Positions 1 through 10,443 of a stretch of 10,443 nt of DNA are shown here, piece after piece. The DNA lies in the NCBI GenBank assembly GCA_025996865.1, contig BNTV01000151.1, forward strand, positions 1 through 10,443, given 5' to 3'. This DNA is from Bacteroidia bacterium. Lineage in GTDB: Bacteria > Bacteroidota > Bacteroidia > Bacteroidales > Azobacteroidaceae. A program made the position numbers and the translations under genes. The stretch's first letter is position 1. Every line of letters starts with the position of its first letter. Below the pieces are notes generated by a model. It was not told the origin of the DNA and did not search any database. It was given only the letters and a program-made list of their open reading frames with translations.

Positions 1-441
1 AATTTTACCGCTTATCTCTCTGACATGACGCGCGTTTTCGCTTTCGGCGAACTTCCCGAAGAAGCTTACCGGGCGCATGGGCTTTCGATAGACATGCACA
101 CGCATCTGATGGAAAAAGTTGGTCCGGGAACAAGTTGCTCCGAGATTTTCGAATGGTCGGTTCAAATGGTTAAAAACGAGGGATTTACCGCTAATTTTAT
201 GGGAACGGTACAACAAGCTAAATTTGTCGGCCACGGCATCGGAATAGAAATCAACGAATTACCTGTCCTGATGGGGCGTTCGAAAGACACCTTACAACCG
301 GGCATGGTTTTTGCATACGAACCTAAGTTTGTATTACCGGGAATCGGTGCGGTAGGAAATGAAAATACCTATCTTATCACGGATTCCGGTATAGAAAAAC
401 TAACTGTTTTTGAGGAAGATATAATCAAACTCACAGATTAA
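1..441 (+). CDS. Xaa-Pro peptidase (M24 family), C-terminal catalytic part, 5' end missing
   Basis: This is the C-terminal half of an M24 'pita-bread' metallopeptidase of the Xaa-Pro aminopeptidase/dipeptidase type, a cytoplasmic enzyme that cleaves next to proline. The frame is open from base 1, so the true start lies outside the window; the ATG at 25 is internal. Visible metal-ligand positions, numbered from the first codon, are Asp8 in SDMTR, His78 in GHGIGIEINELP, Glu107 in EPKF and Glu121 in NENTY. The first Asp ligand of the family would lie just left of the window. About 146 residues are present of a usual 390 or so. The matching N-terminal domain is found inverted at 1340-831, so the gene may be broken by an inversion, or an intact copy may extend leftward. 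The family call is firm; whether the gene is functional is open. Confidence 0.9.
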   Translation, partial: NFTAYLSDMTRVFAFGELPEEAYRAHGLSIDMHTHLMEKVGPGTSCSEIFEWSVQMVKNEGFTANFMGTVQQAKFVGHGIGIEINELPVLMGRSKDTLQPGMVFAYEPKFVLPGIGAVGNENTYLITDSGIEKLTVFEEDIIKLTD

Positions 442-473: not shown

Positions 474-1106
474 ATGATGCATTTCAAGTGTTTTTATTCC
501 AAGCTAAATATGCTTGTTCTCTTTTTGCTTTGTTCAACGATGACATACGGGCAACAGACATTAGATATCATTGATTTGTCTTATGATTATTTTTTAAGTA
601 AACAGGCGCGTACCATACAGACAAGGTCTAATGTGGGAGTTTATGGATTCCACGAAGGAACCGGCGGAGTTGTATTTGAATCCGTTGCTACCCCTTCGAA
701 AGCAATCGGAAACAGTAAAATTTTCCTGGATTATGAATCAGACCGGTTTACCGTTACAGTTGACAATCAAAGAATTTATCCGGAATTTCCTGATTGGCAA
801 TTGATTCCGACAGTAACATTTGCCGATAGTCCGTTCGATTTCGATTTGAAATTCGATATCCGTCATTCCTTTCCGGAAAACGGATGGGATTTCACGATAG
901 GCTTCCGCATGTTTCACGGCGGAAATACGGAATTGTTCAATTTCCCAAGGGGTTTTAACCATGCGCGCTTGCCGCAAGATGGGGCTTGCATTTCCCGTAT
1001 GTGCAGGATTAAAAACTTTTTTCAAGCGAACAAACTCGCTGTAAGAAATTTGATCTTCTTCCAGAAAAAGGTTTTCGGGCAGAGGAATATTTCTTTCTTT
1101 GAGTAA
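474..1106 (+). pseudogene. Exported protein of unknown function, apparently truncated near 830
   Basis: I do not recognise this protein. It begins with a clear signal peptide: a basic start, a hydrophobic core (LNMLVLFLLC, residues 11-20) and a likely cleavage site around TYGQQ (24-28). Residues 29-120 look like a soluble or beta-rich envelope domain, with segments such as GVYGFHEGTGG and YPEFPDWQL. It starts 32 nt after the peptidase stop, which suggests an operon; ATG 474 is followed at once by a second ATG. The frame stays open to 1106, but from about 831 the opposite strand encodes conserved M24 peptidase sequence. Residues after about 120 are therefore probably read-through of the wrong strand. 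The real 3' end of this gene is expected elsewhere. Supported: an exported protein fragment. Inferred: truncation by rearrangement. Confidence 0.55.
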
Positions 1107-1340
1107 ATCGGGAATATCTTCCGGCTTGCGGATAAAAATCACCTGTTCATCGTTAAAATCCAAAGGTCGTTGAACAAAATAAACCGGCTTACCTTCCTCC
1201 GGGAGATACAGAAAACCCGTAAATATTTGCTCTGTAAGATAATAGATATTTACATTGGTAGAAATCAAACAAGCGCCACCTCCCGCTTCCACAAGTAGTT
1301 TTTGTACCGAATCCCAACGGACTCGCAAGTCTTTGTTCAT
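738..1340 (-). pseudogene. Xaa-Pro peptidase (M24 family), N-terminal part only, broken near 831
   Basis: Residues 1-170 match the N-terminal creatinase-like domain and the start of the catalytic domain of Bacteroidetes Xaa-Pro peptidases. They include CLISTNVNIYYLT (24-36), FLYLPEEGKPVYFVQRPL (43-60), RKPEDIPDLL (71-80), and the segments MVKTPWEIEQF (127-137) and GMTDIEFQIEIER (158-170) that precede the catalytic domain. After residue 170 the expected continuation is missing. The remaining 30 residues (codons in 738-830) are antisense to the signal-peptide gene and look spurious. This protein has no metal ligands, so it cannot be an active peptidase. The missing C-terminal half lies at 1-441 in the opposite orientation; the two halves do not overlap, and about 70 residues fall outside the window. 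ATG 1340 is preceded by a good promoter. Confidence 0.8.
815..845. other. Probable inversion or fold-back junction
   Basis: Left of this interval the credible coding strand is + (signal-peptide gene); right of it the credible strand is - (M24 peptidase N-terminus). Peptidase homology stops at Arg170, whose codon occupies 831-833. No insertion-sequence ends or long repeats are visible here. The exact breakpoint cannot be fixed to the base, because both frames stay open across it and short homology may be shared. The position is inferred from where protein similarity ends. Confidence 0.6.
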
Positions 1341-7155: not shown

Positions 7156-7644
7156 TCAAATAAACAATGTTTGTCCTCCTTCGGAAAGTTTCAGGAAAGA
7201 CGCGACGCCTAATATTTCTTTCACTTCCGGAATGAGGTCGCTTTTCCCAATTCCCAAAATGTGCATAGCCATTTCGCAGGCGTAAAAATTGATACCCAAT
7301 TCCTTAGCGGCATCTACCAATTCTTCCAAGGTTGCTACGTTGTTCTTTTTCATCAGAAAACGGAAGATTTTCGGACTGATACCCCAAAAATTGAGGCGGC
7401 TTACCGGAGCGGCTTTCAATCCGCCCATCATAAGGCCAAACACTTTGGGCAAGAATCCTTTACCGACCGGAGAACGCCCTTGTTTGATTTTAATTGCATC
7501 CAATCCCCAAAAAGTGAAAAACAGATTCACTTCGTATCCGACAGCGGCGGCTCCTGTCGCCAAGGTAAATACGGCCGTCAATTTATCGAAATCCCCACTG
7601 AATGAAATAATGGATAATTTCTTTGTTTGTTTCTCTTCGCTCAT
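7156..7644 (-). CDS. DsrE/DsrF/DrsH-like family protein
   Basis: This 162-residue protein has the DsrE-like alpha/beta fold of the larger variant often annotated 'DsrE/DsrF/DrsH-like' or 'peroxiredoxin family'. Seen here: an N-terminal beta strand KLSIISFSGDFDKL, a glycine/alanine helix (ATGAAAVGYEV, 29-39), FTFWGL (43-48) typical of this subfamily, and one cysteine, Cys123, in FYACEMAMHILG, at the place where family members carry the persulfide. DsrE-type proteins exchange sulfur with TusA, and here a TusA-like gene follows at once, which supports a functional pair. The frame extends to a TTG at 7653, but ATG 7644 (MSEEKQ) is the more plausible start. The start abuts a 7-bp tandem repeat. 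The substrate or acceptor is not known. Confidence 0.85.
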   Translation of the reverse strand: MSEEKQTKKLSIISFSGDFDKLTAVFTLATGAAAVGYEVNLFFTFWGLDAIKIKQGRSPVGKGFLPKVFGLMMGGLKAAPVSRLNFWGISPKIFRFLMKKNNVATLEELVDAAKELGINFYACEMAMHILGIGKSDLIPEVKEILGVASFLKLSEGGQTLFI

Positions 7645-7686
7645 AATTCTCAATTCTCAATTTTTAATTCTTAATTTTCAATTCAC
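7645..7686. repeat. Heptanucleotide tandem repeat, six degenerate units
   Basis: On the + strand, six consecutive 7-bp units fit AATTYTY, with AATT kept in perfect 7-bp register: AATTCTC, AATTCTC, AATTTTT, AATTCTT, AATTTTC, AATTCAC. The array fills the whole gap between the dsrE-like ATG (7644) and the moeB-like stop (7664-7666) and extends into the last codons of the moeB-like gene, where it encodes ELKIKN and the stop. The repeat could vary in copy number by slippage; this is inference. Confidence 0.8.
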
Positions 7687-8473
7687 ACGCCGCTTGTTCA
7701 TAATCAATTAATTCCGTTATTACCGGATGCGGGCCACAGACGGGACAATGTTCCGAACGTTTCGTTTTAATGGTTCGGAATTGCATGGTCTTCGCATTGA
7801 ATGACAGGAGTTTATCCGTCAATAATTCGCCGACTCCCGTCAGAAATTTCAAGGCTTCTGCCACCTGAATCGTACCTAACATGCCTGCAATGGCGCCCAA
7901 AACGCCTGCCTGCGAACAAGTGGGAACAGCCCCCGTAGGGGGCGGAGCGTGAAACAAACACCGATAGCAGGCTGAACCGGGTAAGTAGGTCATTGTTTGC
8001 CCTTCAAACCGCAAAATGCCTCCGTGCGAAAACGGTTTGCCGGCCAATACGCAAGCATCGTTAATCAGAAATTTGACGGGAAAATTATCGGTTCCGTCCA
8101 CGATGAAATCGTAGTCTTTGATAATATCGAAAGCATTTTCCGAAGTCAAAAGTTCATAGTAGGTAACTACTTTTACATCAGGGTTTAACTGATTGATTTT
8201 TTCCTTGGCCGAAAGTACTTTCGGTTTGTTTACATCGGCAGTGAAATGGATGATTTGGCGTTGAAGGTTACTTAAATCAACCACATCGCCGTCAATCAAC
8301 CCGATAGTTCCTACACCTGCCGCCGCAAGGTACAGAGCGACCGGAGAACCCAAACCGCCGGCTCCGACTACCAATACCTTACCGTTGCTTATTTTTTCCT
8401 GACCGTCCACTCCTACGTCTTGAAGCAAGATGTGGCGGCTGTATCTGCTTATTTGATCTTCTGTAAATTCCAT
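7664..8473 (-). CDS. MoeB/ThiF-type sulfur-carrier adenylyltransferase (E1-like)
   Basis: This E1-like enzyme (269 residues from ATG 8473) uses ATP to adenylate the C-terminal Gly-Gly of a ubiquitin-like sulfur carrier such as MoaD or ThiS before thiocarboxylate formation. Visible are RYSRHILL (10-17), the nucleotide loop GAGGLGS (37-43), LSNLQRQ (67-73), DGTDNF with Asp129, the PTCSQAGVLG segment with Cys186, and four zinc cysteines in CYRC (169-172) and CPVC (243-246). There is no C-terminal rhodanese domain. The frame can be opened to a TTG at 8503, but ATG 8473 gives the family N-terminus MEFTEDQISRYSRH. MoeB, ThiF and HesA types cannot be separated safely from sequence alone. No MoaD/ThiS-like carrier gene is in the window. 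It lies 42 nt downstream of the cysteine desulfurase, and its C-terminal tail is encoded by a tandem repeat. Confidence 0.9.
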   Translation of the reverse strand: MEFTEDQISRYSRHILLQDVGVDGQEKISNGKVLVVGAGGLGSPVALYLAAAGVGTIGLIDGDVVDLSNLQRQIIHFTADVNKPKVLSAKEKINQLNPDVKVVTYYELLTSENAFDIIKDYDFIVDGTDNFPVKFLINDACVLAGKPFSHGGILRFEGQTMTYLPGSACYRCLFHAPPPTGAVPTCSQAGVLGAIAGMLGTIQVAEALKFLTGVGELLTDKLLSFNAKTMQFRTIKTKRSEHCPVCGPHPVITELIDYEQAACELKIKN

Positions 8474-8515: not shown

Positions 8516-9991
8516 CTATGAGAATGTTGACCGCAAGATGTTGTTGACGGCTACAACCAATCGGTCTATTTCTGCTGTTGTATTATAAAATGCAAACGAA
8601 GGACGAACGGTCGCTTCAACACCCAATCTGCGCAAAGCCGGTTGAGCGCAATGGTGTCCTGCTCTCAAAGCAATTCCTTCCAAATCAAGCGCTTTTCCCA
8701 CTTCAGGCGTAGAAATTCCCGGAATAATAAAAGAAACTACGCTTATTCGTTCGCGGGGATTGCCAATCAACCGGATGCCTTCTATTTGTCCCAATTCCTT
8801 ACGGGCGTACTCTGTCAGGTAATGTTCGTATTTTTCAATGTTGTGAATACCGGTTCGGCTCACGTAATCCAAGGCAGCGCCTAATCCGATGGCATCAGCG
8901 ATGTTAGGCGTTCCGGCTTCAAATTTGTGGGGCGGAACATTGAAAACGGTTTCTTCGAAAGTCACATCTTTAATCATATTTCCCCCGCTTTGCCAAGGGG
9001 GCATCAGTTCCAGAAGTTCCTTTTTACCGTAAACTACACCGATTCCGTTGGGTGCGTAGATTTTATGTCCGGAAAATACAAAGAAATCCACATCCAAATC
9101 CTGCACATCAACGGCAGTATGCGCAATGGATTGCGCTCCGTCGATCAATACCCTGGCGCCATAGCGTTTCGCCATGTCAATCATGGTTTTTGCAGGGGAA
9201 ATTGTTCCGAACGTGTTATTAACCTGTCCGAAGGAAACGATTTTCGTGCGTGGACTTAACAGTCGTTCATATTCTTCGAGGATAACTTCACCTTTATCAT
9301 TGATCGGAATTGCCAGTAAATGAGCGTTTTTCTCTTTTGCCAATTGTTGCCAGGGCACAATATTCGCGTGATGATCAAGCGTAGAAACAATAATCTCGTC
9401 GCCGGGCCGGATGAATTTCCGGCCATAAGTTTGTGTGACGAGATTGATTCCTTCGGTTGTTCCCCGGACGAAAAGAATTTCTTCGGAAGAAGACGCATGG
9501 ATGAAGTCTTTGACTTTTTCCCGCGCGCCTTCGTACTGGTCGGTGGAACGAGCTGCAAGCGTATGCGCTGCCCGGTGGATATTTGAATTGTCGTGTTCGT
9601 AATAATGCTTGATTGCGTCGATTACCTGTTGGGGCTTTTGCGTAGTTGCCGCATTATCGAACCAAATCAACTCTTTTCCATTGATTTTCTGGTTAAAAAT
9701 CGGAAAATCCTTGCGAATCGCCTGTACATCAAAAGTTTCTCTGCCATTATAAGTGATGGGTTGATCTCTCAAAAAGGAATATTGCGAATAATTGGTATCG
9801 GCAAACTCGCTTTGGGCTGCCGAATGCAGGCGGGAAGTATCGTTGGGGGAATCGCCTTCCCCGAAGAAAAATCCCGGTAATTTCTCCGCTTCCGGTAAAA
9901 CGCCGGAAAGTTCCGGCTTGGAAAGCGAAGCCTGCAAGCCTTGAAATGAGGCGAAAACACTGCTTAAATCAATAGTATCATGCAGGCTCAT
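8516..9991 (-). CDS. SufS-type cysteine desulfurase with N-terminal encapsulin-cargo extension
   Basis: This PLP enzyme removes sulfur from cysteine, giving alanine and an enzyme persulfide. The catalytic part (about 87-491) is a group II (SufS/CsdA) aminotransferase-fold protein: WFDNAATTQKP (110-120), RGTTEGIN (176-183), LDHHANIVPW (205-214), DGAQS from Asp284, the PLP lysine Lys310 in SGHK, and the nucleophile Cys448 in RAGHHCAQP, followed by VRPSFAFYNT. SufS proteins are about 405 residues; this one has 491. The extra 86 N-terminal residues are rich in Ser, Asp, Glu and Pro, contain LPGFFFGEGD (38-47), and look disordered. Such extensions direct cysteine desulfurases into Family 2A encapsulins. 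The ATG overlaps the shell-gene stop (ATGA), implying coupled translation and matched supply of cargo and shell. Encapsulation is inferred from family knowledge and linkage. Confidence 0.93.
   Translation of the reverse strand: MSLHDTIDLSSVFASFQGLQASLSKPELSGVLPEAEKLPGFFFGEGDSPNDTSRLHSAAQSEFADTNYSQYSFLRDQPITYNGRETFDVQAIRKDFPIFNQKINGKELIWFDNAATTQKPQQVIDAIKHYYEHDNSNIHRAAHTLAARSTDQYEGAREKVKDFIHASSSEEILFVRGTTEGINLVTQTYGRKFIRPGDEIIVSTLDHHANIVPWQQLAKEKNAHLLAIPINDKGEVILEEYERLLSPRTKIVSFGQVNNTFGTISPAKTMIDMAKRYGARVLIDGAQSIAHTAVDVQDLDVDFFVFSGHKIYAPNGIGVVYGKKELLELMPPWQSGGNMIKDVTFEETVFNVPPHKFEAGTPNIADAIGLGAALDYVSRTGIHNIEKYEHYLTEYARKELGQIEGIRLIGNPRERISVVSFIIPGISTPEVGKALDLEGIALRAGHHCAQPALRRLGVEATVRPSFAFYNTTAEIDRLVVAVNNILRSTFS
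9734..9991 (-). other. Predicted disordered cargo-loading domain of the cysteine desulfurase
   Basis: Codons 1-86 precede the conserved SufS start (FDVQAIRKDFPIF, 87-99). The segment lacks regular hydrophobic spacing, carries many Ser, Asp, Glu, Gln and Pro residues, and has a few hydrophobic clusters (VFASFQGLQASL 12-23, LPGFFF 38-43, YSQYSFL 68-74) that could dock to the inner shell face. Cargo desulfurases of Family 2A encapsulins carry a long disordered N-terminal domain in this place. The boundary is approximate. Confidence 0.7.
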
Positions 9992-10443
9992 TTCAGTGTT
10001 GTTTTACGATTGTTGTAATCGTGGTAATAACCGACTTCTACGTTTTCGAGAACAGCAATGGCATCGTCCGTTAAAGAAGCTAATGAGAAATATTTGGTCA
10101 GCAAATAGCTGGCTACCGCAAATTTATCCAAACCCATCAGACGTGCCGAAAGGCTGGGAGCGATTTCTCCGGGGATACCGGCTTGATGAAGTCCGACTAC
10201 GCCTTGTTCCTCTTCGCCGGTGCGAACCAAAATAATGCTGGTTGTGCCTACGCCGCGATTTGTCAGATATTGTCCCTGAATTTCCACTTTATCGCTGGGA
10301 ATTACCGGAACCCCGCGCCAGGTAATGATTGGAACGCCAAAAACATGAGTTGTTACAGGGGGAACACCGCGCCAGGTACATTCTCTTTCAAAAGCGGCAA
10401 TCGCGCGCGGATGCGCCAGAAAGAAAGCCGGTTTTTTCCACAC
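9988..10443 (-). CDS. Family 2 (probably 2A) encapsulin shell protein, SrpI-like, C-terminal half
   Basis: The last 151 codons of an HK97-fold encapsulin; the gene continues past the right edge, and the first codon in view is an internal GTG, not a start. Recognisable SrpI-like segments, numbered from the first codon in view, are PAFFLAHPRAIAAFERECT (5-23), ITWRGVPVIPSDK (40-52), QGVVGLHQAGIPGEIAPSLS (80-99), and SLTDDAIAVLENVEVGYYHDY (123-143). These proteins self-assemble into icosahedral shells; Family 2A shells package cysteine desulfurase and are linked to sulfur storage. Full-length members are about 300 residues. No cyclic-nucleotide-binding domain, the mark of Family 2B, is seen in this half, and the desulfurase cargo next door supports 2A; the missing half could still change that. 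The stop overlaps the cargo start by 4 nt. Its promoter lies outside the window. Confidence 0.9.
   Translation of the reverse strand: MWKKPAFFLAHPRAIAAFERECTWRGVPPVTTHVFGVPIITWRGVPVIPSDKVEIQGQYLTNRGVGTTSIILVRTGEEEQGVVGLHQAGIPGEIAPSLSARLMGLDKFAVASYLLTKYFSLASLTDDAIAVLENVEVGYYHDYNNRKTTLK

Follow-up and report, generated by a model that had tools for sequence, protein, structure and literature searches.

Does the truncated shell gene at the end of this contig form a sulfur compartment only with the desulfurase gene that overlaps it, or do the two belong to a longer pathway that also carries sulfur back out? The window is the whole stretch of DNA that was analyzed, 10,443 nucleotides. The contig is exactly 10443 bases long, so the window ends where the contig ends. 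The features on which the answer is built are collected in Table 1. In our reading, the window holds the downstream portion of a sulfur module of Bacteroidales that has a Family 2B encapsulin at its core. On balance we favor a reversible cysteine-sulfur store as the role of that module.

Table 1. Features of the window, listed from the contig end inward
Feature	Coordinates	Strand	Evidence
Encapsulin shell, C-terminal 151 residues, very probably Family 2B	9988..10443	(-)	PF19307 185 bits; identity to P0127, L041
Cysteine desulfurase cargo, SufS type, 491 aa	8516..9991	(-)	PF00266 489 bits; TIGR01979 553; NF041166 767
Putative cargo-loading extension	9734..9991	(-)	Extensions compared among relatives; published CyD motifs
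E1-like adenylyltransferase (ThiF/MoeB), 269 aa from likely ATG	7664..8473	(-)	PF00899 281 bits
DsrE2-like sulfur carrier, 162 aa from likely ATG	7156..7644	(-)	PF13686 136 bits
TusA-like sulfurtransferase, 74 aa	6929..7153	(-)	PF01206 64 bits

The shell fragment and its family

The shell frame has 151 codons and is open at the contig end. It contains the segments HPRAIAAF, GVVGLHQAGIPGE and LTDDA, in which the preliminary description had recognized the end of an SrpI-like shell gene. That reading holds. A comparison with encapsulin profiles and SrpI structures had been proposed as a check, and for the fragment it was positive. PF19307 (SrpI-like) is matched at profile positions 124-253 of 254 (185 bits, cut-off 22.8), and a sequence search matched solved SrpI-type shells with E values down to 9e-50. 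In the full-length shell of one relative (L013), sequence homology to solved shells spans residues 7-466. The AlphaFold model of the shell from L041, the nearest locus fetched, is poor (mean pLDDT 50.8).

The N-terminal part of the window's shell lies beyond the contig limits, as do CysK, ThiS and JAMM. Its source genome contains 5.42 Mb in 421 contigs. In this assembly, which is 88% complete, a family search did not retrieve the missing shell N-terminus, and there was no match to L041-like DNA and no protein match to JAMM.

The shell is very probably a member of Family 2B, as judged from its relatives; the domain that defines this family lies outside the contig. Two relatives of 479 residues nearly match the fragment: P0127 (96% identity) and the L041 shell (97%). 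With encap_f2b (cut-off 400), the shell of L041 reaches 566 bits and that of L013 reaches 565, and Pfam finds a cNMP-binding-like domain in the L041, L013 and L011 shells. Both PF00027 and PF19307 are present in all of the best 120 of 8000 scored matches to the L013 shell. Shells were found in 7 of the 295 Bacteroidales genomes searched, and in the six other than the window's the frame has 482-490 codons and its match to the 2A model is split. The fragment groups with L041 among Bacteroidota 2B shells in a tree of 29 sequences. A node with a support of 1.000 sets the Bacteroidota and green-sulfur 2B shells apart; on its far side lie six 2A shells and a single 2B shell from an actinobacterium. 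The loop after PSDK contains 18 residues in the fragment, 16-18 in Bacteroidales 2B shells and 15-16 in four green-sulfur 2B shells. It contains 9-10 residues in five of the six 2A shells compared.

That the shell of this organism belongs to Family 2A after all is very improbable. The fragment alone scores slightly higher with encap_f2a (215 bits) than with encap_f2b (197 bits), but full 2B relatives exceed both cut-offs, so this score does not discriminate. Loop length by itself does not decide for 2B or against 2A, because one of the six 2A shells, that of Aliarcobacter, has a loop of 17 residues. Taken together, the nearly identical 2B relatives, the position in the tree and the loop set the fragment with 2B.

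The preliminary description had framed the pair as Family 2A. The encapsulin shell and its desulfurase cargo stand. The closest full-length relatives are 2B, and together with the tree and the loop they led us to reject the Family 2A filing. Bacteroidetes versions, described there as less explored, had already been tallied in the literature: PMC8346489 counts 111 Family 2A CD operons in Bacteroidetes and reports 2B CD systems in 9 phyla. The warning that such shells are mislabelled was borne out: the database names of several relatives read "Crp/Fnr family transcriptional regulator" or "cyclic nucleotide-binding domain-containing protein." Some already carry the label "family 2B encapsulin."

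A canonical cyclic-nucleotide-binding domain has a phosphate-binding arginine (PBC Arg). This residue is replaced in all of the best 120 shell relatives. A pattern gave Ser in 114 and Ala in 5, and the one protein that it did not match (P0226) has Ala by eye. The inserted 2B domain keeps much of the FGE motif but does not have the phosphate-site Arg. Judging from these residues, the CRP-like domain of the shell probably does not sense cyclic nucleotides. The loss of Arg in the 120 listed relatives agrees with the part of PMC12407261 that was available, where 2B domains are reported not to bind cyclic nucleotides.

The desulfurase cargo and its extension

The desulfurase exceeds the cut-off of the SufS model (TIGR01979, 553 bits against 475). 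It scores 767 bits with NF041166, which is named for 2A cargo; this is below the cut-off of 800, and the alignment runs from residue 74 only. The SufS-like part starts at about residue 83-86. The N-terminal extension therefore contains about 86 residues, the length given earlier. A SufS-type enzyme with an N-terminal extension adjoins the shell, which is the arrangement of an encapsulin desulfurase cargo. The overlap of the two genes was also described correctly: the shell stop and the desulfurase ATG have ATGA, 4 nt, in common. This overlap is not universal. Taking the first ATG, GTG or TTG as the start, the spacing is -4 nt in 9 of the 42 loci with both genes and -1 to +151 nt in the others.

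The extension contains DLSSVFASFQ and YSQYSFLRDQPITYNGRET, whereas the LREIAGRI-type motif present in a number of longer relatives is missing from it. By eye, YSQYSFLRDQPITYNGRET resembles AASPYYFLDG, a motif given for other CyDs in PMC8049743. Another published motif, LARLANEFFS, has no counterpart in the extension of the window's desulfurase; it is kept as LREIAGRI or LASRLFNE in some longer relatives. Extension lengths in the relatives were obtained by cutting at a motif, which may have misplaced the end of a few short ones.

The genome has one other strong match to PF00266, on contig C13. It is a frame of 406 residues without an extension, and the frame next to it looks like SufD by eye. 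Among the best 120 of 7999 scored matches to the window's desulfurase, the named proteins come from Dysgonamonadaceae, Candidatus Symbiothrix and other Bacteroidales.

Neighboring genes in the window and in related loci

The shell-desulfurase pair is part of a larger gene set that the preliminary description left unmentioned: genes for E1/ThiF, DsrE2 and TusA adjoin it on the downstream side. All five genes are read from the same strand. Their spacing from shell to TusA is -4, 42, 19 and 2 nt, and EttA starts 81 nt beyond TusA. PF00899 is the sole Pfam family in the E1, which has no rhodanese domain and is 94% identical to that of L041. The DsrE2 scores 71 bits with NF047629, below the cut-off of 210. 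TusA proteins have the motif CPxP. The TusA-like protein of the window has CPMT in its place.

In L041, the gene order is CysK, ThiS, JAMM, shell, desulfurase, ThiF and DsrE2. Proteins common to this locus and the window are 92-97% identical. From the CysO/CysM/Mec+ set, the window has the E1 only, and L041 has the carrier, E1, cysteine synthase and JAMM. The L041 carrier exceeds the cut-off of the ThiS model TIGR01683 (63 bits against 37), and its JAMM is nearest to desampylase (76 bits, below the cut-off of 130). The window's own genome contains a CysK on contig C5. It looks like a paralogue of the locus CysK, since it is 65% identical to that of L041, while the L041 and L043 copies share 82%. 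Two other loci (L047 and L034) contain two CysK-like genes in tandem upstream of the shell.

We compared 45 shell loci, 26 of them with at least 4.5 kb of sequence upstream of the shell. Within these 26, TusA was found in 25, DsrE2 in 24, CysK in 22, JAMM in 18, and ThiS and ThiF in 14 each. Across all 45, cut loci included, the counts were 39 for TusA, 36 for DsrE2, 32 for CysK, 29 for JAMM, 21 for ThiF and 20 for ThiS. A desulfurase is present in 42 of the 43 loci with 500 nt of sequence downstream.

ThiS, ThiF and JAMM often lie away from the shell locus. In 8 of the 26 loci, JAMM is missing from the available stretch; 7 of these 8 genomes encode it elsewhere, and in 6 of those it has ThiF as a neighbor. 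The genome of L050 was the one among 13 searched with no match to JAMM. The association also holds across whole genomes: of the 295 Bacteroidales genomes, 7 have a shell, 11 have JAMM and 5 have both (Fisher 5e-7, uncorrected for kinship and with both counts taken as from the same 295 genomes). JAMM is missing from two of the seven genomes with a shell, that of the window (88% complete) and one that is 65% complete.

The JAMM motif is HxHx7SxxD. It is present in 40 of 40 JAMM proteins. ThiS-like carriers from Bacteroidales loci extend at least one residue past GGG in 29 of 30 cases, and these tails suggest trimming by JAMM.

Other lineages differ in content. Four loci of a green-sulfur family have the 2B pair beside CysK, with no DsrE2, TusA or JAMM nearby. 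A ThiF-like gene lies a few kb away in three of the four. The green-sulfur carriers, three weak matches, end at GGG and are tailless. Neither JAMM nor ThiS was found near four of five plasmid shell loci in an incomplete gene table. The Aliarcobacter cibarius plasmid pACIB (L135), from another phylum, has a 2A pair near MoaD/ThiS and an M67 peptidase. On these counts, the coupling of the shell to thiocarboxylate genes is not general.

Genes for rhodanese, CysE and cysteine synthases also lie near the pACIB pair, interspersed with insertion sequences. In a phylum sample of 395 genomes, 62 were shell-bearing, 55 of them in one family (L068-L097, L125-L128). The chlorosome protein CsmA was present in 4 of 4 tested genomes of that family. 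From these two counts, the 2B desulfurase encapsulin seems common in green sulfur bacteria.

Sulfur flow and known systems

The encapsulin-desulfurase half and the thiocarboxylate-cysteine half of this module are each already known. In the portion of PMC8049743 available, the Family 2A SrpI/CyD system of Synechococcus elongatus likewise has a shell followed by a desulfurase with a non-catalytic N-terminal domain; its shell differs in having no inserted domain, and its loading domain contains 225 residues. CysK, serine acetyltransferase and rhodanese adjoin that pair. ThiS, E1, JAMM, TusA and DsrE2 are absent within 8 kb of it in the PLSDB table, which is incomplete. Family 2B encapsulins have a CRP-like domain inserted, as do the relatives of the window shell, and 199 2B operons with desulfurase cargo had already been counted, according to the accessible sections of PMC12407261 and PMC8346489. 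The 2B structure study, as far as its text was available, concerns a different system, the xylulose-kinase system of Streptomyces (PMC12407261).

The carrier half resembles the mycobacterial CysO/CysM/MoeZ/Mec+ set, which includes a ThiS-like carrier, an E1, a cysteine synthase and a JAMM-type protease (PMC3227635, available part). It differs from that set in that the E1 has no rhodanese domain and TusA and DsrE2 are present instead, the carrier is tailed, and the synthase is CysK and not CysM by NCBIfam. Operons with ThiS, E1, JAB and cysteine synthase, and SirA-containing ones (types 4c and 4e), were described in 2006, and their content resembles the carrier half. Type 4e has an E1 without rhodanese together with a SirA/TusA protein (PMC1779556, available text). 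The word "desulfurase" appears nowhere in the main text of that paper.

The union of the two halves was not found in the encapsulin literature searched, with most subscription papers and all supplements outside its reach. Three encapsulin papers (PMC8049743, PMC8346489 and PMC12407261) use none of the terms MoaD, sulfur carrier, TusA and DsrE in their main text. For the exit of sulfur from a desulfurase encapsulin, a rhodanese acceptor has been proposed (PMC8346489), and the source of CysO sulfur was stated to be unknown in 2011 (PMC3227635). The module offers a testable answer to the exit question, and its gene set would address the CysO-type sulfur source at the same time. It makes TusA and DsrE2 candidate partners of the shell.

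As proposed, the extension would load the desulfurase into the shell. The encapsulated enzyme would strip sulfur from cysteine and leave persulfide or elemental sulfur inside. On demand, sulfur would pass via TusA and DsrE2 to the ThiS-like carrier and be placed on its C-terminal glycine. The tail of this carrier would first be trimmed by JAMM, and the E1 would then adenylate it. CysK would build cysteine on the carrier from the thiocarboxylate, and JAMM would release it. The carrier chemistry is modelled on mycobacterial CysO/CysM/Mec+. The steps would form a closed cysteine-sulfur cycle, in which the direction of sulfur flow is hypothetical.

An encapsulated desulfurase is also reported to store sulfur in Acinetobacter. 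The shell here may likewise be a plain sulfur store as in Synechococcus, with the thiocarboxylate cysteine genes fed not by the shell but by a sulfite reductase-TusA fusion. We regard this as unlikely, although several observations fit it. Such fusions lie by or near ThiS/ThiF/JAMM in three of six JAMM clusters from genomes with no shell match and in one split shell genome, and parts of them are visible in further genomes. On contig C53 (L110), the window's own genome encodes the end of a sulfite reductase that has a TusA domain at its C-terminus. No match to the shell was found in six of the 11 genomes of the order sample that have JAMM, so a shell is not required for the cysteine pathway to operate. 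Against a plain store, most loci keep free-standing TusA and DsrE2 by the shell, also when ThiS, ThiF and JAMM are elsewhere; L047 is an exception.

It is still more doubtful that sulfur flows one way from cysteine, with the desulfurase feeding E1/ThiS for thiamine, thio-cofactors or tagging and JAMM removing tags. The scores of the carrier as ThiS (63 bits) and of the JAMM nearest to desampylase (76 bits) would suit this. CysK, however, is a steady neighbor in 22 of 26 loci, which indicates cysteine as the product.

The reversible store that we favor has a more speculative form. The virus-derived shell would be a rechargeable sulfur bank, filled by the desulfurase and emptied via TusA/DsrE2 into ThiS/JAMM cysteine synthesis, and the CRP-like domain would gate release in response to some ligand that is not a cyclic nucleotide. 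We offer this tentatively, as a possibility on the low side.

At the other end of the window, the frames at 1-441 (+) and 738-1340 (-) seem to be the C-terminal half and the N-terminal half, respectively, of one M24 peptidase, the latter matching PF01321 Creatinase_N. They lie on opposite strands, as if inverted or misassembled.
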